Below, in pieces: positions 7,603 to 61,256 of a DNA stretch of 64,000 nt. The DNA comes from Aquimarina sp. BL5. GTDB taxonomy: Bacteria; Bacteroidota; Bacteroidia; Flavobacteriales; Flavobacteriaceae. The stretch covers positions 3,123,501-3,187,500 of the forward strand of contig NZ_CP031963.1 in assembly GCF_003443675.1 (NCBI RefSeq). The letters are read 5' to 3'. Position 1 is the first letter of the stretch. Each line of letters begins with the position of its first letter. The notes beneath the pieces are model-generated. The model had not been told where the DNA came from, did no database searches, and worked only from the letters and a program-made list of their open reading frames with translations. The position numbers and the translations under genes are program-made.

Positions 7603-7950
7603 ACCTAATTGTTGTGTGGTAAATACAATTTATTATCTCTTAGCAGGTTGCACAACTTTTTCCAAATACACAACAAGTTAATTTTATTTTATTTTGTTAA
7701 ACAAAGACTTAATCCTTAGTTTTGCCAAAAAGTAGTAAACCAAATCATATTATCAAACATCCCCCCTCTAGATAATTATAATATTACTCTTGAAACCAAA
7801 AATAACGAGAACGTAAAATTTCTCCAGAATTACCCTCTTTTACATAATTGGTTTGTTACCTGTAATATTGTTATTTAAATAAATTGTATACAAAAGCAAG
7901 TGTAATTAGACTCTATATTTTATGGAGTGAATGGCTTTATTTGGAATAGA
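7603..7950. other. Intergenic region before the repeat adhesin
   Basis: AT-rich, no gene. It contains the small inverted repeat TTGTTGTGT/ACACAACAA (7609-7617, 7668-7676). It presumably holds the promoter of the large surface protein, which I could not locate confidently. Confidence 0.4.
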
Positions 7951-10900
7951 ATGATAAAAAATATAATATGTATTTATGTCCTCCTCATTTTAGGAAATCA
8001 ACTGCTATTTTCGCAAGCTGATTACATAAGTTGGGAGTTTAAGGGAGGAAATCTTCTAAGAAATCCTGACGGCACGTCTACCGGACCAGGATCTGAACCT
8101 GCTGGATTAGATGTAGCAACAATACCTAATACCTCTATAACAAGAGGTCGCTTACGTTCTGCAATACTTGGGGATCTAGATAATGATGGGGATCTAGATT
8201 TTATTTCTGGTAGTCAAGGAGGTACCATACATTATTTTAAAAACGAAGGAACAGCAACCGCTCCTAACTGGATAGCAGCATCAATACCGACTTTGGACAC
8301 TATTTGGATTGACAGAGATCTGACCGTAAGAAATCAAAATAGACCTCAACTCACAGATATTGATGATGACGGAGACCTAGACCTATTCATAGGCACCGAC
8401 TATGATTATGAACGAGATCGTAATAATGATGTTCTTTTTTATAGAAATATAGGAACCCCTGAAATCCCTGTTTTTGAATATATCCCAGATGGTTTACCAG
8501 GACTTAACGATCAGGAGATCGCTGAATTTCCAGGTTTAGGTTTTGTAGACCTCGACAATGACTCAGATCTAGATATGGTAGCATTAGGTAGTGATAAATT
8601 AACCTACTATAAAAATATTGGTACTATAAACACTCCCATCTTCGAACTTCAGTCTGAAACGGACAGTCCTTGGATTGATGAAAATGCTTTTAATAATATG
8701 GATGTTCCAATACCTGTATTTGAAGATTTTGACAAAGATGGAGATTATGACATGTTTTTTATGACTGATACTGGTTTCGTTAGATGGATAGAAAATATTG
8801 GTACAACAACAATTCCTAGTTTTGCTTCTACCCAAAACGTATTTAATGGTGAACTTACTAGTGGACAAATTGGTAGTTTTGCTACTATAGATTTTGGAGA
8901 TGTAGATGGAGATGGTTTAAAAGATGCTATATTAGGTAGCTTTAATACACCTCGATTTGCTTGGTTCAAACAGGTTCCTATTTGCATAAGCCCTATTATA
9001 ACAGAAGTAACTGGAACAACCGAATTGTGCGAAGGTGAAAGTTCTATCATTACCATATCTGGTAATTTAAATAGTGCATCGACTTGGTCTATTTATACGG
9101 ATTCTTGCGGAGAAAACTTATTAGGGACTACTACTACAAATATTTCAACTTTTGAAGTAACTCCCACTATACCAAGCACCACTTATTACATACGAGGTGA
9201 AGATGGTGATCTAGGATGTATAGATGAAACTATAGCCACCTGTACAACAATTACAATAATGGTTAATACTTTAGATGATCCATCTTTTAATTATAACCAG
9301 GCTCTCTATTGTGCAGATGCATCTAATCCTACTCCAACAGTTACTGGGTTGGCTAATGGTACATTTTCAAGCACTACAGGTTTGGTTCTAGATCCTGCTT
9401 TGGGAACTATTAATATCGCCGACAGCACACCTGGTGAATATACTGTGACCTATACAACTAACGGAACTTGTCCGAACACAAGTGATGTAACCGTAACTAT
9501 CACCGAACTTGACGATCCTAGCTTTAGTTATGATGCAGCACTTTATTGTACAGATGCGTCAAACCCTACCCCAACAATCACTGGGTTGGATGGTGGTACA
9601 TTTTCAAGCACTACAGGTTTGGTTATAGATCCTGCTTTCGGAACTATTAACATTGCGGACAGCACACCTGGTGAATATACTGTAACTTATACAACTAACG
9701 GAACTTGTCCGAATACAAGTGATGTAACTGTAACTATTACTGAACTTGACGATCCTAGCTTTAGTTATGATGCAGCACTTTACTGTACAGATGTATCAAA
9801 TCCTACTCCAACAGTTACCGGATTGGCTGGTGGTACATTTTCAAGCACTACAGGTTTGGTTATAGATCCTACTTTCGGAACTATTAACATTGCGGACAGC
9901 ACACCTGGAGAATATACTGTAACTTATACAACTAACGGAACTTGTCCAAATACAAGTGATGTAACCGTAACTATCACCGAACTTGACGATCCTAGCTTTA
10001 GTTATGATGCAGCACTTTATTGTAAAGATGCGTCAAATCCTACTCCAATAATCTCTGGATTAATGGGTGGTACATTTTCTAGTACTACAGGTTTGGTTAT
10101 AGATACTGCTTTGGGAACTATTAATATCATAGACAGCACACCTAGTGAATATACTGTAACTTATACAACTAACGGAACTTGTCCGAACACAAGTGATGTA
10201 ACTGTAACTATCACCGAACTTGACGATCCTAGCTTTAATTATGATGCAGCACTTTATTGTACAGATACATCAAATCCTACTCCAACAGTTGCTGGATTAA
10301 TGGGTGGTACTTTTTCAAGTACTACAGGTTTGATTCTAGATCCTTCTTCAGGAACTATTAATATCACAGACAGCACACCTGGAGAATATACTGTAACTTA
10401 TACAACTAACGGAACTTGTCCGAACACAAGTGATGTAACTGTAACTATTACTGAACTTGACGATCCTAGCTTTAGTTATGATGCAGCACTTTACTGTACA
10501 GATACATCAAATCCTACTCCAACAGTTGCTGGATTAATGGGTGGTACATTTTCAAGCACTACAGGTCTGGTTATAGATCCTGCTTTGGGAACTATTAATA
10601 TCATAGACAGCACACCTGGTGAATATACTGTAACTTATACAACTAACGGAACTTGTCCAAATACAAGTGATGTAACTGTAACTATCACCGAACTTGACGA
10701 TCCTAACTTTAGTTATGATGCAGCACTTTACTGTACAAATGCGTCAAACCCTACCCCAACAATCACTGGATTAATAGGTGGTACATTTTCAAGCACTACA
10801 GGTCTGGTTATAGATCCTGCTTTGGGAACTATTAACATTACAGACAGCACACCTGGAGAATATACTGTGACCTATACAACTAATGGAACTTGTCCGAATA

Positions 10901-12678
10901 CAAGTGATGTAACTGTAACTATCACCGAACTTGACGATCCTAGTTTTAGTTATGATGCAGCGCTTTATTGTACAGATGTATCAAATCCTACTCCAACAAT
11001 CACTGGATTGGCTAATGGTACATTTTCAAGCACTACAGGTCTGGTTCTAGATCCTGCTTTGGGAACTATTAATATCATAGACAGCACACCTGGTGAATAT
11101 ACTGTGACTTATACAACTAACGGAACTTGTCCAAATACAAGTGATGTAACTGTAATTATCGCCGAACTTGACGATCCTAGCTTTAATTATGATGCAGCAC
11201 TTTATTGTACAGATGTATCAAACCCTACTCCAACAATCACTGGATTAATAGGTGGTACATTTTCAAGCACTATAGGTTTGGTTTTAGATCCTTCTTCGGG
11301 AACTATTAATATCGCAGACAGCACACCCGGAGAATATACTGTGACCTATACAACTAATGGAACTTGTCCGAACACAAGTGATGTAACTATAACTATCACC
11401 GAACTTGATGACCCTAGCTTTATTTATGATGCAGCACTTTATTGTACAGATGCATCAAATCCTACTCCAACAGTTGCTGGATTAATGGGTGGTACATTTT
11501 CAAGCACTACAGGTCTGGTTATGGATCCTGCTTTGGGAACTATTAACATTGCGGACAGCACTCCTGGAGAATATACTGTGACCTATACAACTAACGGAAC
11601 CTGTCCGAACACAAGTGATGTAACTGTAACTATCACCGAACTTGACGACCCTAGCTTTAGTTATGATGCAGCACTTTATTGTACAGATGCGTCAAATCTT
11701 ACTCCAACAATCACTGGATTAATAGGTGGTACATTTTCAAGCACTACAGGTTTGGTTATAGATCCTGCTTTGGGAACTATTAACATTGCGGACAGTGCGC
11801 CTGGAGAATATACTGTGACCTATACAACTAACGGAATTTGTAGTAATTCGTCCACTTTTGATATTAGCATCAATGCTTTAGATGATGCATCGTTTTCATA
11901 TACAGAGACTTCTTATTCAACTACTGGCTCAGATCCAACTCCAACTGTAACAGGAATAATGGGCGGTGATTTCATATCTACACCAGCAGGATTAGTAATT
12001 AATAGTAGTACAGGAGAAATCGACGTATCTACTTCAATACCTAATGCCTACATAATTACATATATAACAGCAGGAACTTGTACTAACTCATCTAGTGTAA
12101 ATATAACCATCACTGATATAACGCCGCCAACGGTAAGCATAACATCTACAGAACCTAATCCAACCAGTAATGACTCATTTGAAATCACTATTAATTTTAG
12201 TGAAGATATAACTGGTTTCGATTTAAACGATATCATTGTAGAAAATGGAATAGCTTCTAATCTTTCTGGAGGAGATCTATCCTATACTGCTACAATTACG
12301 GCAATTACATCCGCAACCATCACTATAAATATTAATACAAATAGTCTAACTGACCTATACGGAAATGGAAATATTGCTGCAACTCAATTTAGTATTAATT
12401 TTGACAACACTTTAGGAATTGATGATGAAAACCTCGCAAACGGTATTACTATTTATCCAATACCATCCAATACTACTATCAATATATCGAGTGAAATCAA
12501 TTTATCGTTAAAACGTGTTGAGTTTTTTGATTTTCAGGGTAAATTAGTTCTTTCGAAGCGTCTAGATACTGGCACAATTACCAATAGTATTGACATCTCT
12601 TCATTTCATTCTGGTTTATATCTAATGATGATATATTCTGAAACAGGCTCTACCACTAAAAAGATACTCAAAGAATAA
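7951..12678 (+). CDS. Large T9SS-secreted surface protein with FG-GAP and eleven 79-residue repeats
   Basis: About 1575 residues from the ATG at 7951, chosen because a signal peptide (MIKNIICIYVLLILGNQLLF) follows directly; a GTG at 7927 is possible. The N-terminal third has FG-GAP/VCBS calcium-type motifs (GDLDNDGDLDFISG, DIDDDGDLDLFIG, DLDNDSDLDMV, DVDGDGLKDAILG), as in beta propellers. Residues 441-1309 are eleven repeats of exactly 79 residues (237 bp each, 9271-11877) starting LDDPSFSYDAALYCTD and ending SDVTVTITE, each with two Cys. A twelfth degenerate copy follows, then an Ig-like domain (FEITINFSEDITGFDLNDI) and a T9SS type A sorting domain (ITIYPIPSNTT ... GLYLMMIYSETG). It is probably an exported, cell-surface adhesin or matrix protein; the ligand is unknown. 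Confidence 0.85.
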   Translation: MIKNIICIYVLLILGNQLLFSQADYISWEFKGGNLLRNPDGTSTGPGSEPAGLDVATIPNTSITRGRLRSAILGDLDNDGDLDFISGSQGGTIHYFKNEGTATAPNWIAASIPTLDTIWIDRDLTVRNQNRPQLTDIDDDGDLDLFIGTDYDYERDRNNDVLFYRNIGTPEIPVFEYIPDGLPGLNDQEIAEFPGLGFVDLDNDSDLDMVALGSDKLTYYKNIGTINTPIFELQSETDSPWIDENAFNNMDVPIPVFEDFDKDGDYDMFFMTDTGFVRWIENIGTTTIPSFASTQNVFNGELTSGQIGSFATIDFGDVDGDGLKDAILGSFNTPRFAWFKQVPICISPIITEVTGTTELCEGESSIITISGNLNSASTWSIYTDSCGENLLGTTTTNISTFEVTPTIPSTTYYIRGEDGDLGCIDETIATCTTITIMVNTLDDPSFNYNQALYCADASNPTPTVTGLANGTFSSTTGLVLDPALGTINIADSTPGEYTVTYTTNGTCPNTSDVTVTITELDDPSFSYDAALYCTDASNPTPTITGLDGGTFSSTTGLVIDPAFGTINIADSTPGEYTVTYTTNGTCPNTSDVTVTITELDDPSFSYDAALYCTDVSNPTPTVTGLAGGTFSSTTGLVIDPTFGTINIADSTPGEYTVTYTTNGTCPNTSDVTVTITELDDPSFSYDAALYCKDASNPTPIISGLMGGTFSSTTGLVIDTALGTINIIDSTPSEYTVTYTTNGTCPNTSDVTVTITELDDPSFNYDAALYCTDTSNPTPTVAGLMGGTFSSTTGLILDPSSGTINITDSTPGEYTVTYTTNGTCPNTSDVTVTITELDDPSFSYDAALYCTDTSNPTPTVAGLMGGTFSSTTGLVIDPALGTINIIDSTPGEYTVTYTTNGTCPNTSDVTVTITELDDPNFSYDAALYCTNASNPTPTITGLIGGTFSSTTGLVIDPALGTINITDSTPGEYTVTYTTNGTCPNTSDVTVTITELDDPSFSYDAALYCTDVSNPTPTITGLANGTFSSTTGLVLDPALGTINIIDSTPGEYTVTYTTNGTCPNTSDVTVIIAELDDPSFNYDAALYCTDVSNPTPTITGLIGGTFSSTIGLVLDPSSGTINIADSTPGEYTVTYTTNGTCPNTSDVTITITELDDPSFIYDAALYCTDASNPTPTVAGLMGGTFSSTTGLVMDPALGTINIADSTPGEYTVTYTTNGTCPNTSDVTVTITELDDPSFSYDAALYCTDASNLTPTITGLIGGTFSSTTGLVIDPALGTINIADSAPGEYTVTYTTNGICSNSSTFDISINALDDASFSYTETSYSTTGSDPTPTVTGIMGGDFISTPAGLVINSSTGEIDVSTSIPNAYIITYITAGTCTNSSSVNITITDITPPTVSITSTEPNPTSNDSFEITINFSEDITGFDLNDIIVENGIASNLSGGDLSYTATITAITSATITININTNSLTDLYGNGNIAATQFSINFDNTLGIDDENLANGITIYPIPSNTTINISSEINLSLKRVEFFDFQGKLVLSKRLDTGTITNSIDISSFHSGLYLMMIYSETGSTTKKILKE
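9271..11877 (+). repeat. Eleven tandem 237-bp coding repeats
   Basis: The unit begins at each LDDPxF codon block (GACGATCCTAGCTTTAG recurs every 237 bases, e.g. 9511 and 9748). All eleven copies have the same length with no indels. Differences cluster in the middle of the unit (positions about 17-45 of the 79 residues) while the ends are nearly identical in DNA. This suggests recent expansion or gene conversion. Confidence 0.9.
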
Positions 12679-12912: not shown

Positions 12913-13806
12913 TTAAGTGGATTCTGTTTTATTCTTAAACTTTCTAATTCCCCACGCTACTTTATAGGTTCTATAAAGTAAATCATATATTACCATTTCG
13001 TGTAAACGGTTTTTAGATCTAAATAACCTATTCATAAGCATATGAATATAACTACCCATCATATCATCTAATTCAGGCTTACTTACAACGGATAGAATCT
13101 TTCTAACCAAAGGCTCACTATTTTTACTCTTTTCTTCCAAAACATCAATAATAGGAGCATAATCAGCATCTGTTTCTCTTTCGAAATTCAAAAAACTCTT
13201 AATTTTATCATGCTCATTCCTGAATTTCTTATCCATCTGTTTTTTGAGACCTTTATTCATTCCAAATTCGGCTCCAAAACCTAGCTTTAATCGTTCCATT
13301 AAAACCATTTTTTCATCTTCATTGTAACCAAAATCTTGGAGTTTTTGATCTATCGCTCTTGCTCCAAATAACCATCTTAGCTCTTCTCCTTCATCTCCAT
13401 CAATCATATCCAAAAAATCTACGACCATCTTACTATCCAGAAAAAATAATTCTTCAGACTCACTCATGGTCTTTACTCCATAGCGTTCTATTTCTCTTTG
13501 ATACGTATCCAGTTGTATCTTCCAGATCAGATCTTCATCAGAAAACTCTTTAAGTGAACTATATAAAGCATTAATAACTCCAGCCACGTTCTCAGGATTT
13601 TCATAATGGAATCTAACTCTAATATGATGCTTTGGGTCGTTATACCGAATGAAAAACCACTTATCAATGATATTATTTTCTAATAAATACATTGCAGTAG
13701 GCTTAATAATATCCGTTAGAACCAAATCCGAGGTTTTTGGTCCGGTATATATTTTATAATACAACCATTCACTACCTACTATAAAAGATCTTTGTACATC
13801 CATCAT
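12913..13806 (-). CDS. Split LanB, C-terminal elimination domain (thiopeptide-type bacteriocin biosynthesis protein)
   Basis: A 297-residue stand-alone SpaB_C/LanB elimination domain. Motifs of the family are visible: WFFIRYNDPKHHIRVRF near residue 50, TYQREIERYG near residue 105, and SYIHMLMNRLF near residue 255. In class I lanthipeptide pathways this domain removes glutamate from glutamylated Ser/Thr to give dehydroalanine and dehydrobutyrine. Its start overlaps the stop of the glutamylation gene by one base (TAATGATG), so the two are translationally coupled. A split LanB of this kind is known from the Chitinophaga pinensin cluster. It is the last gene of the lanC-lanB-lanB operon. Confidence 0.9.
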   Translation of the reverse strand: MMDVQRSFIVGSEWLYYKIYTGPKTSDLVLTDIIKPTAMYLLENNIIDKWFFIRYNDPKHHIRVRFHYENPENVAGVINALYSSLKEFSDEDLIWKIQLDTYQREIERYGVKTMSESEELFFLDSKMVVDFLDMIDGDEGEELRWLFGARAIDQKLQDFGYNEDEKMVLMERLKLGFGAEFGMNKGLKKQMDKKFRNEHDKIKSFLNFERETDADYAPIIDVLEEKSKNSEPLVRKILSVVSKPELDDMMGSYIHMLMNRLFRSKNRLHEMVIYDLLYRTYKVAWGIRKFKNKTEST

Positions 13807-16040
13807 TAATTCTGCAAGTTTTTTAATTTCTTTTCATTATAAAATGACATAACAATTTGATTTGTAAATACGTTTCCTCTTTCTTTTATCAAACTCCCAT
13901 TAACATGCAAAAATTCTTTGAGCTTAAATCTACTCCTCTTTTTTACTGTATTCAATAACATTTTTACAGATGTAATATTTTTAGTATTGATTAGCAATTC
14001 ATTGTCTCCATCTACCAGAAGAACAAACTGAGGTAAACTTTTACTATCCACAAAGTTTTCCAATTCTTTGGAAAACTTATTTTCATCATTCAGATTCTTT
14101 AATAAAGGTTGAATTTCTGATGATGTAATATTCCAAATAGCATTAGAAAGTATAATATCTTTATATTCTACTCTTGGTAAAAAATCATACTCTTCGGCAA
14201 ATGGACCCCAATCAAAAGCGATGCCTCCTCTCTGATTTTGAGTTTGCATATTGGCTAAAAACTGATAAATAGGTAGTGCGTTACTAGAAAAATTATGTGC
14301 ATTGGTTAAGTGTGGAACTACTTCTTTATTGAATTTTTTGGACCTCAACGTTACCTTTCCGTTCGGACTGGCAGAAATCATTAAGTCATCCAACAAAAGT
14401 TGTTGTTCATCATTCAGAATGGACTTTGCTAAATATGGTATTTCATACTTTCTAAAGCTAGGTCTCATCAAAATATTTCCTACTCGAGACTCTGGTAAAT
14501 GCACAATTTCTGCAAGAATTTTATCGGGATTTAACTTTGTTTCTAGATCAATTATTTCTTTCGTATAGGTGTCCAAATCTTCATCTCCATGACAAAAGCG
14601 TCCTAAAAGGTTTGCTGCGCTTGAGCCTCCACAACTAGACATAATAATTTTTTCGACACCGTCTACCTCAACCAACTCTATCATAGAAGAAATAGTATCA
14701 GGTAAATCATCCCAATTTTCCTCAAAATCACTAAAGTCTTTGTCTGTTAATACCAAAGTACGCTGCTGCTCCTTAATGCATTCTAATAGTCTTTTATTTA
14801 ATACTGCATGTATGGGTGACCATCTAACATCCCTTGCGACTGTTTTTTCCTGCTTGAATGGTAGTACAAGATCATCAATTATTTGACTCACATCTCCCGA
14901 GTCTTTATCCTGCAAAAAACCAATTCCAAGTTCTACATCAAGTGCTTTTGATAAAGAAAGTTCTCTACTCTCATATCGCTCATAAAATGCTGCTTTAAAT
15001 CTGGAATTAAGCGTTTCTTTTGGTGGTAATGTAAGTTTATTAAGTAATGATAATCCTTTCTTGATCTTCCTTAAGGTTTCGTGACTAATCGTATTTGTTT
15101 CTAAAGAAAGGTTCATGTCTGTCTGAAACATATACTTCAATTCGAAACCGGTACCTAATTTCTTTAAAGATTCACTAAGATCAATGTATTCCTTCGTTGG
15201 GTTTCCTATATTTTTATCTATTCGCTTCAGTGTTAGCTGTACAGTTTCTAGCTCAGAAATGATTTGTTCGGTGCCTGATATTTTTTTAAGAACTGGTATG
15301 ATTTGATCCAAAAATTCAGGCCCAGAAACAGATGGTTCTAACTCACTAATCAACAATTGACTTTCTACTAATTGATCTATAAATCCAGACGCTTCTTCTT
15401 TACTAATTTCATCATCTACCAATAATTCTGCTAAATCACAAAGCTGAGATCCTTTTCTCGCTTCAGAAAGTACTTTTTGTAAATATTCAGAATCTTCTAC
15501 TGCTACGATATGATGAACTCTTCTACTTTCTACATAGGTGTATTCTACATATCTCAGTTGTTTACCTGCCTTATAAACACTGGTATTCGGATAAAACAGA
15601 AGTTGATCTCTAATGACTTTATCTTTAACAATATCCTGAGATAACGCCACCAGATAATTCATATCCAATCGGGTATGACGATTGTTTTTTGATTTATCCA
15701 AAAGTTCAATATTGGTAGTATCTGAAAAATTTCCAACTGCTGTTCCTGCAAAAAGCCCAAATGGTGTACATCGCGAGGACATTCTACTAATGTATTTTAA
15801 CACAGAATACATCATGCGCTCTGAAGCTGCTTTTTCTTTGATATCTCCTTTCAACCATTTTTCAAACTCCTGATATAAAGAAGGCGATGCCAAAAAAATA
15901 GCTTCTTTAATAATTTCATTAGAGCAAACTTGTTTTAGCTCGTTTTCTTGTAATGTGCTATTACTAGTTAGTTCTTTATAAAATGAAAAGGAAAATAGTG
16001 GAGTACGTAATACGTATTTTGGGAAATTTTTATAGCTCAT
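13806..16040 (-). CDS. Split LanB, N-terminal glutamylation domain (lantibiotic dehydratase)
   Basis: A 744-residue lantibiotic dehydratase N-terminal protein. The start YKNFPKYVLRTPLFSFSFYK and the motif MSSRCTPFGLFAGTAVG near residue 90 are typical of the family. DMNYLVALSQDIV and the late segment QNQRGGIAFDWGPFAEEYDF also fit. This domain transfers glutamate from Glu-tRNA to Ser/Thr of the precursor core. A full-length LanB is about 1000 residues; here the elimination part is the next gene. It starts 22 nt after the lanC stop. Confidence 0.92.
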   Translation of the reverse strand: MSYKNFPKYVLRTPLFSFSFYKELTSNSTLQENELKQVCSNEIIKEAIFLASPSLYQEFEKWLKGDIKEKAASERMMYSVLKYISRMSSRCTPFGLFAGTAVGNFSDTTNIELLDKSKNNRHTRLDMNYLVALSQDIVKDKVIRDQLLFYPNTSVYKAGKQLRYVEYTYVESRRVHHIVAVEDSEYLQKVLSEARKGSQLCDLAELLVDDEISKEEASGFIDQLVESQLLISELEPSVSGPEFLDQIIPVLKKISGTEQIISELETVQLTLKRIDKNIGNPTKEYIDLSESLKKLGTGFELKYMFQTDMNLSLETNTISHETLRKIKKGLSLLNKLTLPPKETLNSRFKAAFYERYESRELSLSKALDVELGIGFLQDKDSGDVSQIIDDLVLPFKQEKTVARDVRWSPIHAVLNKRLLECIKEQQRTLVLTDKDFSDFEENWDDLPDTISSMIELVEVDGVEKIIMSSCGGSSAANLLGRFCHGDEDLDTYTKEIIDLETKLNPDKILAEIVHLPESRVGNILMRPSFRKYEIPYLAKSILNDEQQLLLDDLMISASPNGKVTLRSKKFNKEVVPHLTNAHNFSSNALPIYQFLANMQTQNQRGGIAFDWGPFAEEYDFLPRVEYKDIILSNAIWNITSSEIQPLLKNLNDENKFSKELENFVDSKSLPQFVLLVDGDNELLINTKNITSVKMLLNTVKKRSRFKLKEFLHVNGSLIKERGNVFTNQIVMSFYNEKKLKNLQN

Positions 16041-16062: not shown

Positions 16063-17277
16063 TTAGCTAATCATTAAACATTCGTTCCATTGATTTTCTG
16101 ATGGCGTCAAATAGGAAATTATTGACAAGCCAATTCCGGCAATGCCTTCTAATAAATTAGATTCGTTTTTCCATTGTTCCAGATCACCTCTCCATTGTTT
16201 ATAACCTGCATAACCGTCTTTATATGTATCCATCTTTAGCGCTTCTCCCATCCAAAAATCTGCTGTTTCTTTAAATATTTCTTCTTTAGTTTCTATATAC
16301 ATGTGATTGAATATAGTAATGATTCCAAACATGCCATGACATAATCCTGTATCATGTATTCTTGCTTCTTCTGCGTCTCTCCTTTTGGCAGCATATTTCA
16401 AAATATGTATCGCTAATTCTTGATATTTATCATTATCTAATGCTTTACCTACTCTCCAAAGCGAAATGCCTATTCCTAAATCACCGTAGCACCAAGCTAA
16501 TCTACTATTGGTATATTCATCCATTTCCGGATACACCCAACTCGGAAATAGGGAACTGTTGCTTTCATCAGGATACTTATAACTAATCATAAAATCCGCT
16601 GCGCCAATTAGCAAATCCTTTATGGACTCTTGGAACTCTTCATACGTATACAATCTACTTAAAAAATTAATGACACTCGCCATTCCGTGTGATAAACTTA
16701 AATTAGCTCCGTGAAGCTTATCCTTTTTATGCAATTCATACATCCAGAAAACACCTCTCTGATCTGTACGAGCACTCTCTTTAAGAGCTTCAATAAGCAA
16801 ATGAAGATAGGCTGCGTACTTTTGTTTTAATGAATCCGACGCTGTGTTTTGATATCTTTTGAAAAAATAATACCCGTACCCTATTGCTCCGTGTAAAAAA
16901 TCAAAATATTCATTTTTGATATCTGATTTCATGGATTCTAAAAGATAGGTGTCCAGATCTGATAAAAGTTCATCATTATCAATGTCAATAAATTCTTCCT
17001 CATTTAATAACTCTAACACCCATCCAGCTCCTGCTATACCTGTACAAAAGGAAGGAAAAGAATACCCATCGTTCATACGTTGTATAGTTTCTGATATGAC
17101 GGCTACTCCTATGTCTGCAATTTGTTCATCCTCTATAAATCGAGCATAATAAAACTGAAAAAGTGAGATGCCAGAAATACCAGACAAAACACCTAGATGT
17201 TCTTTGTTCGTATAATTTTCTTTTAAAATATGGTGTATTTCTTTTAATTTTTCCTTTAAAACTTTGGTAGTGTTCAT
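16063..17277 (-). CDS. LanC-like lanthionine cyclase
   Basis: A 404-residue LanC family protein. The alpha-toroid GxxG-type repeats are visible (LGVLSGISGISLF, SFCTGIAGAGWVL, FLHGAIGYGYYF, LSHGMASVINF, LLEGIAGIGLSII). The zinc ligands are Cys in LAWCYGDLG (about 262) and Cys-His in DTGLCHGMFG (about 312-313). The enzyme closes thioether rings between Cys and dehydrated residues. It is the first gene of the lanC-lanB-N-lanB-C operon. A promoter-like TACATTAG lies at 17310-17317 and a TTGTCCAA site at 17357-17364 upstream. Confidence 0.92.
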   Translation of the reverse strand: MNTTKVLKEKLKEIHHILKENYTNKEHLGVLSGISGISLFQFYYARFIEDEQIADIGVAVISETIQRMNDGYSFPSFCTGIAGAGWVLELLNEEEFIDIDNDELLSDLDTYLLESMKSDIKNEYFDFLHGAIGYGYYFFKRYQNTASDSLKQKYAAYLHLLIEALKESARTDQRGVFWMYELHKKDKLHGANLSLSHGMASVINFLSRLYTYEEFQESIKDLLIGAADFMISYKYPDESNSSLFPSWVYPEMDEYTNSRLAWCYGDLGIGISLWRVGKALDNDKYQELAIHILKYAAKRRDAEEARIHDTGLCHGMFGIITIFNHMYIETKEEIFKETADFWMGEALKMDTYKDGYAGYKQWRGDLEQWKNESNLLEGIAGIGLSIISYLTPSENQWNECLMIS

Positions 17278-17583
17278 TGAAGATCAATTCGTGTTATTGC
17301 ATTGGTGGTCTAATGTAGCACCTAATTAGAGAAATGAAAAATTATATGACCCTATATTGGACAAAATGAGGAGAAAGCTCTTTAAAAAAGAAGTATATTA
17401 TGATTATCAGATATCTTTTGTTTGCATAAAAACGTTTATCGAAAACTATATCCAGAAAATTCTATATAGTGATAAACAGCATACAATAACGAATAGATGA
17501 CTAAGCAAGGAATTTTTCCAAAAAATCATTTTTAATCAGATATTCCAAGATGTTATTATCATTTTCAGGTTATTGGTTTTAAA
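17278..17583. promoter_or_regulatory. Upstream region of the lanC-lanB operon
   Basis: A gene-free stretch between the precursor terminator and lanC. On the minus strand it holds TACATTAG (17310-17317, one mismatch to TAnnTTTG) and the 18-mer ACCCTATATTGGACAAAA (17349-17366, plus-strand reading), which recurs with one mismatch at 21082-21099. No other gene is seen. Confidence 0.45.
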
Positions 17584-17650: not shown

Positions 17651-17836
17651 TTATTTAGCCACACATCCTATTCCTCCTTCCCAAATAGGCACTGAATTAC
17701 ATAATGCATTTGTAGCATTCGGTCCTCCGCAACCAAAGGACATAGTACCTGTTACACTTCCTCCTTTAATATTCTTAAGGTTCAGATTACTAATCGTTTG
17801 TTTGTTAAGCTCTAAATTTTTTAATGATTTTTTCAT
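17651..17836 (-). CDS. Class I lanthipeptide precursor, type B (copy 1)
   Basis: A 61-residue precursor. The leader MKKSLKNLELNKQTISNLNL continues KNIKGG; this LxLxKxTISxL...GG form is the typical Bacteroidota class I leader. The 35-residue core after GG has six Ser/Thr (core positions 1, 3, 5, 7, 16, 22) and three Cys (10, 20, 32). This allows rings such as Ser7-Cys10 and Thr16-Cys20. It has its own terminator and lies directly upstream of lanC. The 42-nt element (17854-17895) precedes it. Its paralogue is at 20457-20615. Confidence 0.9.
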   Translation of the reverse strand: MKKSLKNLELNKQTISNLNLKNIKGGSVTGTMSFGCGGPNATNALCNSVPIWEGGIGCVAK

Positions 17837-17853
17837 GATATGAAATTTAAAAT

Positions 17854-17895
17854 GTACCTACTCTATACTAAGGTTTTCGGCTTCCCCTTATCAAA
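17854..17895 (-). promoter_or_regulatory. Conserved precursor upstream element, copy 1
   Basis: Read on the minus strand it contains GGGGAAGCCGAAAACCTTAG then ATAGAGTAGGTAC. It is 39/42 identical to 20631-20672 and related to 20402-20443. It starts just after a promoter-like ATTTG box, so it may be the 5' end of the transcript. TAAGG and CCTTA could pair as a 5-bp stem. Confidence 0.6.
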
Positions 17896-17940
17896 TCCTG
17901 ATAGGACTAAAGTAGACGACAACTTAGAAGCTTAAAAACT

Positions 17941-17970
17941 AAAACTCCGCAGTTTGTTCAAACTGCGGAG
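17941..17970 (-). terminator. Terminator after precursor A1
   Basis: A 12-bp stem CTCCGCAGTTTG / CAAACTGCGGAG (17945-17956, 17959-17970) is followed on the minus strand by TTTTAGTTTTT. Confidence 0.8.
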
Positions 17971-18025
17971 CTAATTTTGAGTTACTAAAATTTGTGTGCT
18001 TTTTTAGAAAACTACTTCCTAATAA

Positions 18026-18184
18026 TTAAAAAGTATCACTGTCATTACATTGAATATGGGTATCATAAAACTCATCTGTAGTAGGAGAACTACTACCACC
18101 TTTAACTTGATTCATTTCTGTCATTGTAATTCTAGCTATGGTAAGCTTTTTCAGTGTAATTGTATTTATTTTTTCGTTTTTCAT
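18026..18184 (-). CDS. Class I lanthipeptide precursor, type A (copy 1)
   Basis: A 52-residue peptide. The leader contains ITLKKLTIARITMTEMNQVK followed by GG. The 22-residue core begins SSSPTTDEF and has one Cys (core position 16, in THIQCND) and eight Ser/Thr; Thr12-Cys16 has ring-forming spacing. The LKKLTIARI leader box and the GGSSxPT junction are shared with the paralogue at 20822-20968. It lies between the regulator gene (18337) and precursor B1 and ends at its own terminator. A TTGTCCAA site lies about 116 nt upstream. Confidence 0.85.
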   Translation of the reverse strand: MKNEKINTITLKKLTIARITMTEMNQVKGGSSSPTTDEFYDTHIQCNDSDTF

Positions 18185-18299
18185 GAGTTAAAAGTTTTCA
18201 TATTTATTATATAATTAAGTCATATAGAAACGTATACAACTATTCATTAAACGAAATATACTTCTTATGTTTTTCTATTCATAACTAACAAACCTCAAA

Positions 18300-18307
18300 T
18301 TGTCCAA
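18300..18307. promoter_or_regulatory. TTGTCCAA site upstream of precursor A1
   Basis: TTGTCCAA within AAATTGTCCAATTT, which is itself nearly palindromic, about 116-123 nt before the precursor start. Related sites are at 17357-17364 and 21090-21097. Confidence 0.4.
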
Positions 18308-18336
18308 TTTGCGTTTCTTATACTGCTCATAATAAA

Positions 18337-20070
18337 TTAGGTATACTCGGTTGCTAGTTTTTCTAATTTCTTGATATAATAGGATGGATTGATTCCAGTT
18401 TTGGCTCTAAAATGTTTCGTAAATGAATTGTCACTCTTATAACCAATCTCCATAGCAATCGATTTAATAGAGAAAGATCTAAACTTTTTATCTTCCTTTA
18501 ATCGCTTAAGTACATACTCTATTCTTAAGTCATTGATATACTCATTAAAGTTTTTCATTTTATATGTACTAATAATCTTAGATAAATAGGTTGCATTACT
18601 TTTTACCTTTTTTGCCATTCCTCTTAGGTTACAGTCTGATTTTAAGAAATATTCTTGCGCCTCCAATTTTTCCAATTTCTGGAGTATCGTACTAACTTTT
18701 TGATCATCAATACTTAATTCCTTTGTAGACACCTTGCTACTTTTTATCATTTTTTTAGCTTCTAACTGATCTATTTTTTCAACTAACTGAACAAATTTAT
18801 TTTTACTCTTTTGTTGCTTTCTAAAATACACGCCTGTCATACTTACAAGTAATAAACAAATAGTAATCAAAATACCATTGGTTATATATTTAGTTCTACT
18901 ATCTGCTATCATTTCACTTTGCAAAATGTCTATTTGCGACTCTAGTTGTCGAGTTTCTTTCTTGTAAATTTTATGTACTGTTTTATCTTTATTTATTTGA
19001 TAGTACTTGTTAAGTCTTACATATTCGTCATTCCAGAATAGCGCTTGTTCATACTCTTTTTTTGCTCTATAACAATTGGCTACCAATAGATGCAATTGAA
19101 TAACAGGTTCTTTGTTTTTATCACTCTCTTTTAAGACATCAATACTTTTATGCGCATAGGTAATTGCTTGGTTATATTTTTGTTGTTGATAATAACAACT
19201 AGCCATAAAATAGTTGATATTAACTCTTGGAAAAAACTTGTTTTCTATATTTTCTGTCGATAAAATCTTCTCGGACTTGATTAGATAATCTAGCGATTTA
19301 GTATAATCTTTTTGATGATAAAAAACCATTCCCTTTTTTATATATAAATCAAGAAGTCCTACTTTAAAATCGATAGATTTACTAATCTCAATTCCCTTAT
19401 CAGCGTAATACAATACTTTATCATACATCTCTCTCGCTATGTATACATCATTAATCGTTGTATATATACGAACATGATTTTTACTATTTACAAACGAAGT
19501 ACGATGGATATTCTGTATCATATGCTCTGATATTTCATGTGCTTTGTCTAGCTGATTCATTCGGGTAAGCACTATGATAAGACCAGATTTGGTTATCATT
19601 TCACGATCAATATCACCTGTTGTAATCGCAATATCTATTGCTGCATAATATGCATCCAATGCTTGTTGATCTTGACCTTCTCGCAAATACACATGCCCTT
19701 TTAAACTATACGCTTTGCCTAACCGTTGTAATTCTTTTTTAGTTTTAGTTATTACTATGGTTTGATCCAAAAACTTTAAACTTTTTGCGTATGCTTCTTT
19801 ATCATAGAAAAATCGTCCAATACTATAATATTTTTCTGCTATAGCAACATCTGAATATCGCTTATCTAATAGTGTTTTTTCATATATACCAGTTTCTTCC
19901 GGGTATATTTTTTTTATTAATTCTACTAGTTCTTCGGCGGTTTTGTATCGTAAACTATCGGGAATTATTGTTGATTGTTCTTGCCCGTATGTTTTTGTTA
20001 TTGAAAAAACGGATGCAAATACATAAAGAAGTACATATTTAGGTATGCATCTTTTAACAAAAGAAATCAT
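18337..20070 (-). CDS. Membrane-bound TPR/AraC-type transcriptional regulator (copy 1)
   Basis: About 577 residues from the ATG at 20070, preferred over a TTG 27 nt earlier because the hydrophobic signal/anchor (YVLLYVFASVFSI) then sits at the N-terminus. Next comes a TPR array (about residues 50-380, e.g. AYSLKGHVYLREGQDQQALD, NYFMASCYYQQQKYNQAITY). A membrane helix (ITNGILITICLLLVSMTGVY, about 390-410) precedes a C-terminal AraC-type HTH (IKSIAMEIGYKSDNSFTKHF, RAKTGINPSYYIKKL). The sensor part is therefore probably periplasmic and the DNA-binding part cytoplasmic. It is paralogous to the gene at 21113 and probably controls the peptide genes. Confidence 0.85.
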   Translation of the reverse strand: MISFVKRCIPKYVLLYVFASVFSITKTYGQEQSTIIPDSLRYKTAEELVELIKKIYPEETGIYEKTLLDKRYSDVAIAEKYYSIGRFFYDKEAYAKSLKFLDQTIVITKTKKELQRLGKAYSLKGHVYLREGQDQQALDAYYAAIDIAITTGDIDREMITKSGLIIVLTRMNQLDKAHEISEHMIQNIHRTSFVNSKNHVRIYTTINDVYIAREMYDKVLYYADKGIEISKSIDFKVGLLDLYIKKGMVFYHQKDYTKSLDYLIKSEKILSTENIENKFFPRVNINYFMASCYYQQQKYNQAITYAHKSIDVLKESDKNKEPVIQLHLLVANCYRAKKEYEQALFWNDEYVRLNKYYQINKDKTVHKIYKKETRQLESQIDILQSEMIADSRTKYITNGILITICLLLVSMTGVYFRKQQKSKNKFVQLVEKIDQLEAKKMIKSSKVSTKELSIDDQKVSTILQKLEKLEAQEYFLKSDCNLRGMAKKVKSNATYLSKIISTYKMKNFNEYINDLRIEYVLKRLKEDKKFRSFSIKSIAMEIGYKSDNSFTKHFRAKTGINPSYYIKKLEKLATEYT

Positions 20071-20102
20071 TTGGATCAATATTGTGTGATGATCCAAATG
20101 TA
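20069..20102 (-). promoter_or_regulatory. Promoter and overlapping inverted repeat of regulator copy 1
   Basis: The minus strand reads TACATTTG (plus 20095-20102), a perfect TAnnTTTG, 25 nt before the start codon. The inverted repeat ATTTGGATCA / TGATCCAAAT (20069-20078 and 20090-20099) overlaps the -7 box and the untranslated leader, an autoregulatory operator candidate. Regulator copy 2 has the same spacing. Confidence 0.6.
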
Positions 20103-20188
20103 ATAATTACTTTCTTAAAATAAGTTTATTGGATCAATTACAATAATTTCCATATTGTAATCAAGACCTAACGAGATAATCACTTAAA

Positions 20189-20222
20189 GAAAAGACTCTC
20201 CACTTATTGAAGAATCTTTTCT
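20189..20222 (-). terminator. Weak terminator-like hairpin after precursor C
   Basis: On the minus strand GAAAAGA...TCTTTTC forms an imperfect stem with a T-rich tail, 26 nt after the precursor stop. Confidence 0.4.
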
Positions 20223-20247
20223 AAAAAACGCAAAATGTATTATGGGA

Positions 20248-20385
20248 TTAATGCATATGTATAGGTTGGCAATCAGGACCACCCAACCAAATACAGTGTG
20301 GATAATTGTTTCCTCCTTTTACAGATTGTTGTTGGTTCTTTTCTATGATTGAGACATTTTTCATCTCTAAAATTTTATCTAACAT
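20248..20385 (-). CDS. Atypical GG-leader peptide, type C (core lacks Ser/Thr)
   Basis: A 45-residue peptide. The leader MLDKILEMKNVSIIEKNQQQ ends SVKGG. The 20-residue core NNYPHCIWLGGPDCQPIHMH has two Cys but no Ser or Thr, so it cannot be dehydrated or form lanthionine. It is preceded by the conserved 42-nt element (20402-20443) and lies 71 nt after precursor B2, probably in the same transcript. It may form a disulfide, carry another modification, or be a signal or immunity partner; these are inferences. Confidence 0.7.
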   Translation of the reverse strand: MLDKILEMKNVSIIEKNQQQSVKGGNNYPHCIWLGGPDCQPIHMH

Positions 20386-20401
20386 ATCTACGTGTTTTTA
20401 T

Positions 20402-20443
20402 GTACCTACTCTGTTATAAGGTTTTCGGTTTGCCCTTTTTTAT
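20402..20443 (-). promoter_or_regulatory. Conserved precursor upstream element, copy 2
   Basis: The minus strand has GGGCAAACCGAAAACCTTAT then ACAGAGTAGGTAC, clearly homologous to copies at 17854 and 20631 but with several differences. Here the element sits between two precursor genes rather than after a terminator. Confidence 0.55.
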
Positions 20444-20456
20444 ATAATTCATTATA

Positions 20457-20615
20457 TTAATGTTCCATACAAACTGGAACTCCATTTGTTCCTGTTCTGG
20501 CAGTATTCCCACATAAATAATATGTTTGTAAGCCCACACCTCCTTTTACTTTATCAAGTTCTAAACTACTAATCGTTTGTTTTTTTAATTCTAAATTTTT
20601 TAATGATTTTTTCAT
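20457..20615 (-). CDS. Class I lanthipeptide precursor, type B (copy 2)
   Basis: A 52-residue precursor whose leader MKKSLKNLELKKQTISSLEL continues DKVKGG and is nearly identical to the leader at 17651-17836. The 26-residue core differs strongly: four Thr (core positions 5, 12, 15, 17) and two Cys (9, 23) in a context TYYLCGNTARTG and PVCMEH. Thr5-Cys9 has ring-forming spacing. Conserved leader with divergent core is the usual pattern of precursor paralogues served by one enzyme set. Confidence 0.88.
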   Translation of the reverse strand: MKKSLKNLELKKQTISSLELDKVKGGVGLQTYYLCGNTARTGTNGVPVCMEH

Positions 20616-20630
20616 GATATTGTGTTTTAA

Positions 20631-20672
20631 GTACCTACTCTATCTTAAGGTTTTCGGTTTCCCCTTATCAAA
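20631..20672 (-). promoter_or_regulatory. Conserved precursor upstream element, copy 3
   Basis: The minus strand has GGGGAAACCGAAAACCTTAA then ATAGAGTAGGTAC, 39/42 identical to 17854-17895. A promoter-like TGATTTTG lies immediately before it. The element ends 15 nt before the ATG of precursor B2. Confidence 0.6.
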
Positions 20673-20743
20673 ATCAATTGTCGACATCGCTTTGATTGTG
20701 AGACTAAGCTAGATTGAAAAAAAGAGGATAAAAAACAAAACAA

Positions 20744-20766
20744 CCCTGTTTTGGATAAAACAGGGT
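20744..20766 (-). terminator. Second terminator after precursor A2
   Basis: A 9-bp stem CCCTGTTTT / AAAACAGGG with loop GGAT is followed by TTGTTTTGTTTTTT on the minus strand. Confidence 0.7.
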
Positions 20767-20769
20767 AAT

Positions 20770-20796
20770 AAAAAAACCCTGCATAATACACAGGGT
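20770..20796 (-). terminator. First terminator after precursor A2
   Basis: ACCCTG / CAGGGT stem (20776-20781, 20791-20796) is followed by TTTTTTT on the minus strand, 26 nt after the precursor stop. It is in tandem with the next hairpin. Confidence 0.7.
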
Positions 20797-20821
20797 CTTC
20801 CAATAATTTTATTAGTATTAA

Positions 20822-20968
20822 TCAATGCTCCAAAATACAATAAAAATAATCTGGATCACCACTTGTAGGGACACTACTACCTCCATTAACATTACGCATT
20901 GAATCTAAGTTAATCCTTGCAATCGTTAACTTTTTTAGATCGATTTTGTTTTTTTGTTGTTGCTTCAT
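20822..20968 (-). CDS. Class I lanthipeptide precursor, type A (copy 2)
   Basis: A 48-residue peptide. The leader contains IDLKKLTIARINLDSMRNVN followed by GG. The 18-residue core SSVPTSGDPDYFYCILEH has four Ser/Thr and one Cys (position 14). It shares the LKKLTIARI box and the GGSSxPT junction with 18026-18184. It lies between regulator copy 2 and precursor B2, the same order as in the downstream module, and ends at tandem terminators. Confidence 0.85.
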   Translation of the reverse strand: MKQQQKNKIDLKKLTIARINLDSMRNVNGGSSVPTSGDPDYFYCILEH

Positions 20969-20992
20969 AAACAAGATAATTTAGGTGTTGCT

Positions 20993-21023
20993 CTTACTCT
21001 TTTTTGGATTTTCAGAATCCCCC
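20993..21023 (-). promoter_or_regulatory. Degenerate version of the precursor upstream element
   Basis: On the plus strand CTTACTCTTTTTTGGATTTT then CAGAATCCCCC aligns with CCTACTCTATCTTAAGGTTTTC...CCCC of the other copies. On the minus strand GGATT / AATCC can form a 5-bp hairpin at the place where the other copies have TAAGG / CCTTA. Confidence 0.35.
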
Positions 21024-21081
21024 ATAATTTATATTCATTACTGAAATATATTTTTTAAAGAGGACTAATCACAATAGATCT

Positions 21082-21099
21082 ACCCTATATTAGACAAAA
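21082..21099. promoter_or_regulatory. Shared 18-mer upstream of precursor A2
   Basis: ACCCTATATTAGACAAAA is 17/18 identical to 17349-17366 upstream of lanC. Its core TTAGACAA is TTGTCTAA on the minus strand, about 122 nt before the precursor A2 start, close to the distance at precursor A1 (18300-18307). Confidence 0.45.
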
Positions 21100-21112
21100 A
21101 CGGGTTATTTTT

Positions 21113-22837
21113 TTATACACTTTCCGCAATGTTATTATCTTGTTGCAGCTTTTCTATATTCTTAATATAATAGGATGGATTTAAACCTGTTTTTGCTCTA
21201 AAACGTTTCGCAAAAGCATCATCACTTTTATAGCCTACTTCTGCAGCAATTGATTTAACAGAAAAGGCTCTGAATTTTTTATCATTTTTTAATCGTTTTA
21301 ATGCATACTCAATTCTTAAATCCGTGATATACTCATTAAAATTCTTACCTTTATGTGCATGAATAATCTTGGTAAGATAAGTGGTATTGGTCTTTACTTT
21401 TTTAGCCATTAACCCTAAACCACATTCAGATTTTAAAAAATACTCCTCATCTTCCAGCTTTTCCAATCCTTTTAGTACTGCTGTAACTTTTTTATCATCA
21501 ATTACAATGGTTGCACTACTATCTTTGGAGGTTTTTTTACTCTTTTCTCCCTCTAAATGTTTGATTTTTTCAACTAATTCTGAAAACACCAGTTTGTTTG
21601 ATTGTTGCTTTTTATAATATGTAAACCCTATAAACAATAATATCAGAGACATTGTAATAGAACCAATCAACAGATACTTTGAGATGTTTTCTTTGTTTTT
21701 TAACTGTGTTATTTCTTTCTCGTGTTTTTCAATCTCTTTTTCATAAATTGTGTTTACTGTTTTATCCTTTTCTTCCTGATAGTTCTTATTCAATTTTACA
21801 TAGATATTTTCCCAATAATGTGCTTGTTTGTAATCTTTCTTCTTAAAATAACAATTGGCTAATAACAGGTGTGATTGGATTACAGGTAGCCTACTTCTAT
21901 CTTTTTCCTCAATAAAATCCATGGTATTGTATAAATAAGAAATTGCCTTATCATAGTTTCGTTGTTCATAATAGCAAGCTGCCATATAGTAGTTAACCTT
22001 TACCGTCGGGAAAAACTTGTTCCCTATCTTGTAAAGATCTAAAAGATCTTTTGCACTCTTTAAATTATCAAAAGCCTGATCAAACTCTTTTTTATAATAA
22101 TAGACAATCCCTTTTTTAATATACAAATCCACGAGGCCTTCTTTATAGTTCAACGATTTACTCATGTTAATACCTTTATCCGCATAGTATAATACAGAGT
22201 CGTACTCTTCTTTACCTAAGAACACTTCGTTGATATTAGTAAATATGGCTACATGATTCTTTCCATTTTTAAAAGAAGTTTTATTAATAGCTTGTAACAT
22301 TTCTTTAGAAATTTCTAAAGCTTTGTCCAATTTGTTCATTTTTTGCAATACTAATATTCGTCCAGAATTTGCGATAATTATGTTTCTAAGATTCTCTTGT
22401 TGGTTTGCGATTTGTAGTGCTTTATAATAGTAATCATACGATTTCTGATATTTTCCTTGACGTAAAAAACTTGACCCTATTATCCTGTATGCTGAAAATA
22501 TTAGTTTATCATTCGTAATTATCTGTTTCTTATTAAGAAGTTTATTCGCGTATGTAACACTTCTTTTAAAATCTTCTTTCATGTAAAAAAACTGTCCTAA
22601 TTCGATATATATCTTCCCAATAACCGTATCATTTTTATGAAAACTCTCTAATACTTCTTCATAGACTTCTATATGATCAGCATCAGAAGAGGTAATCAAG
22701 TCTACCAACGCTTCTGGAGTTTTAGTTTTTAGACTATCAGGAATGATGAATTTGGTATCCTGCGCTTTCGTAAAAATGGGTATTATAATAAATAGTAATA
22801 AGAAAAGGAAAAGTATTTGTGTTTTAAAAAAAGCCAT
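21113..22837 (-). CDS. Membrane-bound TPR/AraC-type transcriptional regulator (copy 2)
   Basis: About 574 residues from the ATG at 22837; a TTG 27 nt upstream is disfavoured because the signal peptide (TQILFLFLLLFIIIPIFTKAQ) would be displaced. The architecture equals that of the gene at 18337: TPR repeats (e.g. AYRIIGSSFLRQGKYQKSYD, NYYMAACYYEQRNYDKAISY), a membrane helix (YLLIGSITMSLILLFIGFTY, near 390), and a C-terminal AraC HTH (VKSIAAEVGYKSDDAFAKRF, RAKTGLNPSYYIKNI). The HTH regions of the two are very similar, so they may bind related sites. It is the first gene of the upstream duplicated module. Confidence 0.85.
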   Translation of the reverse strand: MAFFKTQILFLFLLLFIIIPIFTKAQDTKFIIPDSLKTKTPEALVDLITSSDADHIEVYEEVLESFHKNDTVIGKIYIELGQFFYMKEDFKRSVTYANKLLNKKQIITNDKLIFSAYRIIGSSFLRQGKYQKSYDYYYKALQIANQQENLRNIIIANSGRILVLQKMNKLDKALEISKEMLQAINKTSFKNGKNHVAIFTNINEVFLGKEEYDSVLYYADKGINMSKSLNYKEGLVDLYIKKGIVYYYKKEFDQAFDNLKSAKDLLDLYKIGNKFFPTVKVNYYMAACYYEQRNYDKAISYLYNTMDFIEEKDRSRLPVIQSHLLLANCYFKKKDYKQAHYWENIYVKLNKNYQEEKDKTVNTIYEKEIEKHEKEITQLKNKENISKYLLIGSITMSLILLFIGFTYYKKQQSNKLVFSELVEKIKHLEGEKSKKTSKDSSATIVIDDKKVTAVLKGLEKLEDEEYFLKSECGLGLMAKKVKTNTTYLTKIIHAHKGKNFNEYITDLRIEYALKRLKNDKKFRAFSVKSIAAEVGYKSDDAFAKRFRAKTGLNPSYYIKNIEKLQQDNNIAESV

Positions 22838-58409: not shown

Positions 58410-58429
58410 TCTAGTTTAATGATTATAAT

Positions 58430-60760: not shown

Positions 60761-60761
60761 A

Positions 60762-61256
60762 TTATTTAGGGTTTTCTGCAAATTCTATTCTAAAACCTAT
60801 ATCAGTAATTCCTTCCAAAGAATTTATTCCGAGCGTCTCTCCATTTTTTCTCATTGCATGTTGAAGCACTACTTTGTATACTCCTTTTTCTGCAAAATTT
60901 ACATTTTCTTTATACCAAAGTTTACTTTCTTTTAGATCCGTAAAACCAACACCTAACCATTCTCCATTTGGTTTTGCCATTTCATATTCTAAAGTATCTG
61001 TAACTATTTTGCCATTGGGAAACTCCATCTCACTAATCAAAAACAAATTACTAAACTTATAATCGTTCGTGTTTCTTACATTAATGAATAGGTTATATCC
61101 TTGTAATGAATCAAGTTCTGGTAAGGCGAAACTTATCTTTTCATCTTTTTCCCAAGAATCTGATACTGTTTTATATTCATCAAAAACTCTTGTGTCATCA
61201 CAAGAAACAATACTTATTAACAGAAAAAGTAATGTTAAAAACCTAAGATTTATCAT
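60762..61256 (-). CDS. gldH: Gliding motility lipoprotein GldH
   Basis: A 164-residue lipoprotein (signal MINLRFLTLLFLLISIVSC, Cys 19). VFDEYKTVSDSWEKDEKISF, LFINVRNTNDYKFSNLFLIS and GITDIGFRIEFAENPK match GldH. GldH is required for flavobacterial gliding together with the T9SS. It is followed 1 nt later by the PBP gene, and its start overlaps the ricT 3' end by 14 nt, the usual gldH neighbourhood. Confidence 0.9.
   Translation of the reverse strand: MINLRFLTLLFLLISIVSCDDTRVFDEYKTVSDSWEKDEKISFALPELDSLQGYNLFINVRNTNDYKFSNLFLISEMEFPNGKIVTDTLEYEMAKPNGEWLGVGFTDLKESKLWYKENVNFAEKGVYKVVLQHAMRKNGETLGINSLEGITDIGFRIEFAENPK

Follow-up and report, generated by a model that had tools for sequence, protein, structure and literature searches.

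How can a single set of lanthipeptide-modifying enzymes come to serve several precursor peptides, each seemingly placed under a regulator of its own? The question is raised by a stretch of 64,000 nucleotides from Aquimarina sp. BL5 (hereafter the window; positions 3,123,501 to 3,187,500 of contig NZ_CP031963.1, assembly GCF_003443675.1), which lies in a single-contig genome of 6.0 Mb and carries on its minus strand, in this order, regulator 2, the peptides A2, B2 and C, regulator 1, the peptides A1 and B1, the cyclase LanC and the dehydratase LanB as two genes. The initial annotation, which had named these genes in the order in which we find them, described a tandem duplication of a module of regulator, A peptide and B peptide, by which one enzyme set gained a second product with a dedicated sensor retained for each. 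Our results shift the emphasis: the modules have a less tidy history than duplication alone would give, and more interesting than the duplication is the module itself, a general unit of receptor, peptide and operator. We consider it rather probable that each module is a self-contained cassette for peptide signalling and production, in which A is a self-inducing signal sensed by a tetratricopeptide repeat (TPR) domain of the regulator located in the periplasm.

Regulators, peptides and shared enzymes

Regulator 2 (21113..22837, minus strand, as are all the features of this locus) and regulator 1 (18337..20070) are 50% identical over 550 amino acids (E = 5e-177 in a pairwise comparison) and are built alike, with a signal-like N-terminal helix followed by a TPR array, one hydrophobic segment of membrane type and an AraC-type DNA-binding helix-turn-helix (HTH) domain. 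The TPR receptor fold is supported by Pfam (TPR_12, alongside HTH_18, in regulator 2), by an AlphaFold2 model (pLDDT 86.9 for regulator 1) and by VIA-align, whilst the hydrophobic segment between the TPR and HTH domains was read by eye, with helices also present in the model. The signal-like helix and the membrane segment together suggest that the TPR domain lies outside the cytoplasm. For both regulators, and for A2, the ATG starts were picked by eye inside longer listed frames opening with TTG.

Behind each regulator stands a small peptide gene, A2 (20822..20968) and A1 (18026..18184), whose products are 56% identical over 43 amino acids (E = 1e-13, pairwise) and probably serve as signals. 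Both have a leader ending in a double glycine (GG), from which we infer that they are exported, and both reach the 22-bit cut-off of NF038153, the NCBIfam class I lanthipeptide leader (22.0 bits for A2 and 26.8 bits for A1). As read from the sequence, the pairing of regulator and A peptide is almost without exception: an A-type GG-leader peptide follows 56 of the 57 regulators examined, at 102 to 202 nt from the regulator stop save for one row in which the stop is misplaced. Even distant regulators of the same genome, at 25-28% identity (loci L014-L016), are still trailed by an A-type peptide; none was found behind the regulator of L013 (31% identity). In L247 the choice of the longest frame picked the wrong one. 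At two of these loci the distant TPR-AraC regulator is followed by several tandem peptides of the pattern LxLxKx5L...GG, three in L015 (genome position 1058013) and two in L016 (3821939), and these are possible multi-signal modules.

The product precursors B2 (20457..20615) and B1 (17651..17836) are 53% identical over 51 amino acids (E = 1e-13, pairwise). The regulators, A peptides and B peptides are thus pairwise paralogous and in equal order, as had been proposed, and the earlier observation that the cores have diverged also holds, the likeness within the A pair and within the B pair lying mainly in the leader. By eye, the published LxLxKx5L motif can be seen in B1 and B2; with NF038153 they stay under the cut-off, at 15.9 and 11.7 bits respectively, and the third precursor, C (20248..20385), gives no match. 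C has its GG leader end and an upstream RNA element in common with B1 and B2 but no recognisable kinship with either (E = 0.015 and 0.026 in single comparisons). The cores of A1, A2, B1 and B2 combine Cys with Ser or Thr, whereas that of C has two Cys and neither Ser nor Thr after the GG, and therefore C by itself cannot carry a lanthionine. The idea of a second product gained by one enzyme set had overlooked C.

The shared enzymes follow B1. LanC (16063..17277) matches PF05147 (E = 1.4e-48), with the zinc-ligand motifs WCYG and CHG seen by eye, and a class I lanthipeptide dehydratase is encoded on two neighbouring genes, a glutamylation part (13806..16040; PF04738, E = 2.6e-146) and an elimination part (12913..13806; PF14028, E = 2.6e-72). 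Of 19 loci with a related LanB, 16 carry the name Aquimarina. In L066, L068 and L073 (named Aquimarina contigs) and in L159 of genome G014, one LanB is preceded by two tandem lanC genes, one of which is split in L066/L159. Walker et al. (2020; PMC7268733) describe Bacteroidetes class I lanthipeptides as having an LxLxKx5L leader ending in GG and a split LanB, the latter for pinensin too. The present locus resembles such pinensin-type clusters in its GG leader, split LanB and LanC, and differs from them in having several precursors of at least two types, separate regulators and enzyme-less modules elsewhere in the genome, and in that no C39 protease was found within the window. A C39 transporter gene is present at genome position 5437312, behind the peptide gene of another locus which is itself led by the RNA element discussed below.

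Predicted operators and a proposed self-inducing circuit

Upstream of most A and product genes lies a recurrent layout, a 24-nt palindrome separated by 31 nt from a promoter-like TAnnTT element; the promoter consensus of the Bacteroidetes is TTTG / TAnnTTTG. Sites of this kind, which we take as predicted operators, precede A1 (AACGCAAATTGGACAATTTGAGGT, 18292..18315, 31 nt before TATATTTC at 18253-18260; dyad score 9/12), B1 (TCCGCAGTTTGAACAAACTGCGGA, 17946..17969, 31 nt before TACTTTAG at 17907-17914; 11/12) and B2 (ACCCTGTTTTATCCAAAACAGGGT, 20743..20766, 31 nt before TAGCTTAG at 20704-20711; 10/12). A2 is preceded by ACCCGTTTTTGTCTAATATAGGGT (21082..21105), 31 nt before a -7-like TATATTTC at 21043-21050; its dyad falls under the threshold of 8/12 and it was left out of the scan score and counts although the layout is present, and its orthologues in G013, G056 and L077 score at least 8. 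An operator-like site also stands before lanC (TCCTCATTTTGTCCAATATAGGGT, 17349..17372, 31 nt before TACATTAG at 17310-17317; 7/12).

When palindromes were sought at free positions, the best inverted repeat matched at 9 or 10 of 10 letters in 26 of 55 regions (compared to some 9% of shuffles); many of these best hits, however, were repeats other than the operator, and it was the anchored test at fixed spacing that separated them. With the spacing set to 31 the layout is found in 42 of the 55 A-upstream regions, whilst other spacings from 20 to 44 yield 0 to 8. Across the module loci (1.2 Mb, both strands) there are 76 matches at dyad 9 and spacing 31 compared to 10 to 26 at 18 other spacings, so that part of the 76 must be due to chance. 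Between A and the product gene the layout occurs in 40 of 56 modules at a dyad of at least 8, one of these matches (L149_0) being chance-like; when the dyad is raised to at least 9, there are 28 modules at spacing 31 and no more than four at any other spacing.

Most of the palindromes stand behind the stop codon of a regulator or of A, they are near-perfect inverted repeats and some have T-rich stretches behind them, as would suit intrinsic terminators of the preceding gene. Terminators are nevertheless a very unlikely explanation given the constant 31-nt distance to the TAnnTT element, the conservation of the inner TTT..AAA, the letters which the A and product sites of one module have in common, and the related site before lanC, some 280 nt behind B1.

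It is the outer letters of the half-sites that distinguish the modules, being alike within a module and unlike between modules. Taken as operators, the A and product sites of one module agree on average in 3.94 of 5 outer letters compared to 2.65 after shuffling (n = 30; 0 of 5000 shuffles reach the observed value), and in the five loci with two scored modules the own pairs agree in 3.0-5.0 and the cross pairs in 1.5-3.5, although these comparisons are not independent trials since operator sequences share descent. These module-specific letters are the best evidence for a private regulator in each module and, together with the presence of one regulator gene per module, they support the earlier view that a dedicated sensor was retained for each. 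The site before lanC is nearly letter-identical in this genome (G000), G017 and G056, strains with both module types. Its right arm is almost that of the A2 site whilst the left arm belongs to a different type, and with arms so mixed the site may serve more than one regulator. By a lenient score, used without a control, this lanC site reaches 11/12 in four of 23 rows (G000, G017, G056 and, with other letters, L159) and 6-10 in the rest.

In the mechanism that we propose, the regulator would be anchored in the inner membrane and expose its TPR domain to the periplasm, and A would be modified in trans by the shared LanB and LanC, then exported and cleaved at the GG by a C39 transporter whose gene lies elsewhere. 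Once mature, A would be bound by the TPR domain of the regulator of its module, and in this state the regulator would activate both A, in a positive feedback, and the product gene, of B or C type; in this strain it might perhaps also activate lanC-lanB by way of the mixed operator, and the RNA element before B and C would add a post-transcriptional step. The two modules would thereby yield two separately triggered products from a single enzyme set. This proposal should be considered with some caution, as the cores of the products co-vary with the TPR domain no less than those of A, and a ligand role is in this respect not special to A. We had considered co-divergence with the TPR domain as a demonstration of A as the ligand, and rejected it for the same reason, as it does not discriminate. 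Over 90 close regulator pairs the A cores have diverged more than the product cores (0.47 vs 0.25), a difference which fits fast-changing signals but proves nothing.

Alternatively, A and B could be the two halves of a two-component lantibiotic, with the regulator sensing some other cue such as cell-envelope stress or the product of a competitor. A and B are often encoded together, each with a GG leader and a core in which Cys occurs alongside Ser/Thr (54/54 A peptides and 29/29 products of MK type), as would suit such a pair. However, amongst modules with a scored product gene the first precursor begins with ML, MI or MF rather than MKK in 27 of 48, and yet A is present; A is tied to the regulator whilst the products vary, as judged with a product filter that overlooks peptides lacking Lys or Arg near the start; and behind the distant regulators of L251 and L252, in other genera, stands an A-like peptide without any Cys, which therefore cannot be a lanthipeptide, accompanied by operator-like palindromes. 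We regard the two-component reading as unlikely and retain that of A as the signal.

A circuit in which A induces its own module would find parallels in known systems. In nisin-type quorum sensing a lantibiotic induces its own synthesis, and the proposed circuit is similar in that a lanthipeptide operon would be induced by way of a sensor for a peptide that the cell itself makes; here, though, neither a histidine kinase nor a response regulator lies between the described genes, where a single transmembrane regulator is present instead, and the putative signal is a separate peptide rather than the product. The RRNPP receptors of the Firmicutes (Rap, NprR, PlcR and Rgg) are cytoplasmic and bind peptides that have been re-imported. 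The modules share with them the TPR receptor fold and the adjacent gene for a small, presumably exported GG-leader peptide (56/57), but the signal-like helix and membrane segment, suggesting a TPR domain outside the cytoplasm, speak against a cytoplasmic receptor with peptide re-import, the AraC-type HTH is at the C-terminal end and the host belongs to the Bacteroidota; the modules are therefore not classed as RRNPP members. PMC10352776 reports TPR genes near Bacteroidales clusters for ribosomally synthesised and post-translationally modified peptides and suggests that TPR proteins might bind pheromones. Among the literature matches listed, no title or abstract describes this regulator-peptide pair.

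Origin and spread of the modules

The proposal that the two modules arose by a plain local tandem duplication of one module, followed by divergence, draws support from their equal order and orientation. The regulator tree is less decisive. It was built from 61 of 76 TPR-AraC rows, leaving out 11 identical copies, L060_0 and L163_1 (the same copy) and L069_0, in which the frame extends past a stop, and L147_0; six of the 61 score below 300 bits and were excluded from the module counts. Regulator 1 falls into a clade with regulators of G056, G017, L077 and G015, and regulator 2 into a separate clade with others from G056, L077, G028, G013 and L064, both inside an unresolved fork which also contains modules of other loci. 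A tree in which the two whole clades are held together is worse by 2.4 log units, and the approximately unbiased (AU) test does not reject it (p = 0.15); when L160_3 is left out of the joined clades the AU test rejects the constraint (p = 0.00095), which is to be expected as L160_3 groups with regulator 1. The regulators are thus old paralogues found in several strains, which may or may not be sisters. By tblastn identity, L164 and L177_1 (53%) and L067_0 (52%) are, over shorter stretches, as close to regulator 1 as regulator 2 is (50%).

In some strains the same slot holds something else. G013 and G028 have a regulator 2-type module in common with this strain and a LanB that is 91 and 95% identical, but in the slot on the LanC side they carry a third type of regulator, a different product peptide and a LanC of only 57% identity, which points to replacement rather than duplication. 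The product genes, on the other hand, are nearly identical between strains: B1 shares 184 of 186 bases with its copy in G017, where the encoded protein is identical, C shares 136 of 138 with that in G013 and B2 shares 158 of 159 with that in G028. As this identity of 98.6-99.4% compares to 81-91% in the main collinear blocks of these loci, we read it as cassette exchange. It would appear that related strains trade and accumulate such cassettes, with a common set of modifying enzymes at the centre, and the modules have probably spread largely through exchange and recombination between strains and not through one local duplication. Of the original proposal, the paralogous modules in the same order stand; a clean local duplication is improbable, given that regulators of other loci fall into the same fork, that a slot was replaced and that product genes were exchanged.

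The module type recurs across Aquimarina, frequently distant from the LanB/LanC enzymes. At E <= 1e-80 the regulator is present in 17 of the 37 genomes of the genus, with 46 regulators in total, and in the genome of BL5 itself similar modules with C-type Cys-rich peptides and no LanB/LanC within 4 kb are found at 1708600 and 3031769. LanC is present in 16 of 16 regulator-bearing genomes compared to 8 of 17 without the regulator (G000-G032; the counts ignore kinship), which fits a dependence of the modules on the enzymes. The regulator family extends to other genera of the Flavobacteriaceae, two of which (L248, L249) have regulator, A and B together; as up to six candidates per genome were scored, the tallies of this wider search are lower bounds.

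Dedicated receptors for signalling peptides are familiar from the Firmicutes, whilst to our knowledge little is known of them in the Bacteroidota. We tentatively suggest that the modules could represent an undescribed class of peptide quorum sensing in these Gram-negative bacteria, in which pheromones with lanthipeptide leaders are sensed by membrane-anchored AraC regulators with periplasmic TPR domains, each pair has its own operator code, and units made up of a receptor, its pheromone and a payload are gathered, traded and attached to a shared set of enzymes, in other Flavobacteriaceae genera as well as in this one. If true, this genome would display several receptor-signal pairs at once with operators legible in its sequence, and in marine Flavobacteriaceae the A peptides might serve to awaken the silent lanthipeptide clusters that encode them. 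With such a code of operators, the idea of one sensor per product becomes directly testable.

The DUF805b element and other observations

A 42-nt repeat before B1, B2 and C corresponds to the Rfam family DUF805b (RF02914), which reportedly goes back to Weinberg et al. in 2017. The three elements, at 20632..20667 before B2 (43.8 bits), 20403..20438 before C (45.4 bits) and 17855..17890 before B1 (44.6 bits), exceed the gathering score of 35.6 and end 16-18 nt ahead of the start codon; a weak, similar element before A2 (20991..21025) scores 31.9 bits, below that value. We had considered the repeat as a binding site of the regulator, and rejected this because it matches DUF805b, occurs in 34 of the 37 genus genomes compared to 17 for the regulator, and also precedes lipoprotein genes; a strict version of the box is found in 17 of the 37, 15 of these with the regulator. 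Genome-wide there are 17 matches at E <= 0.001, 12 of them above the cut-off, which by eye precede GG-leader peptides in ten cases (the weak A2 element included), lipoprotein or secreted-protein genes in five and other genes in two. The stem of 21 elements retains four pairs in 17 and three in 4 (G-U allowed, best-fit register, no control), and its letters vary between sites with the pairing mostly kept. The position of the element would suit a post-transcriptional role. No function for DUF805b was found in the literature searched, where the name DUF805b itself is absent and the eight papers naming DUF805 look unrelated by title. Through its association with the modules, candidate target genes can be named for this orphan class of RNA.

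Elsewhere in the genome DUF805b leads further GG-leader peptide genes, at L241 (5440889), L244 (410677), L242 (2758844) and L238 (1687563). Behind the peptide gene, one of these four has glycosyltransferase-like and C39 peptidase genes, and one has a gene with a radical-SAM-like CxxxCxxC motif, seen by eye. Within the window, positions 7927-12678 encode a protein of 1583 amino acids with about 12 near-identical repeats, cell-surface-like by eye, and positions 56085-60781 hold a tandem pair of paralogous genes (774 and 783 amino acids) which are penicillin-binding-protein-like in appearance.

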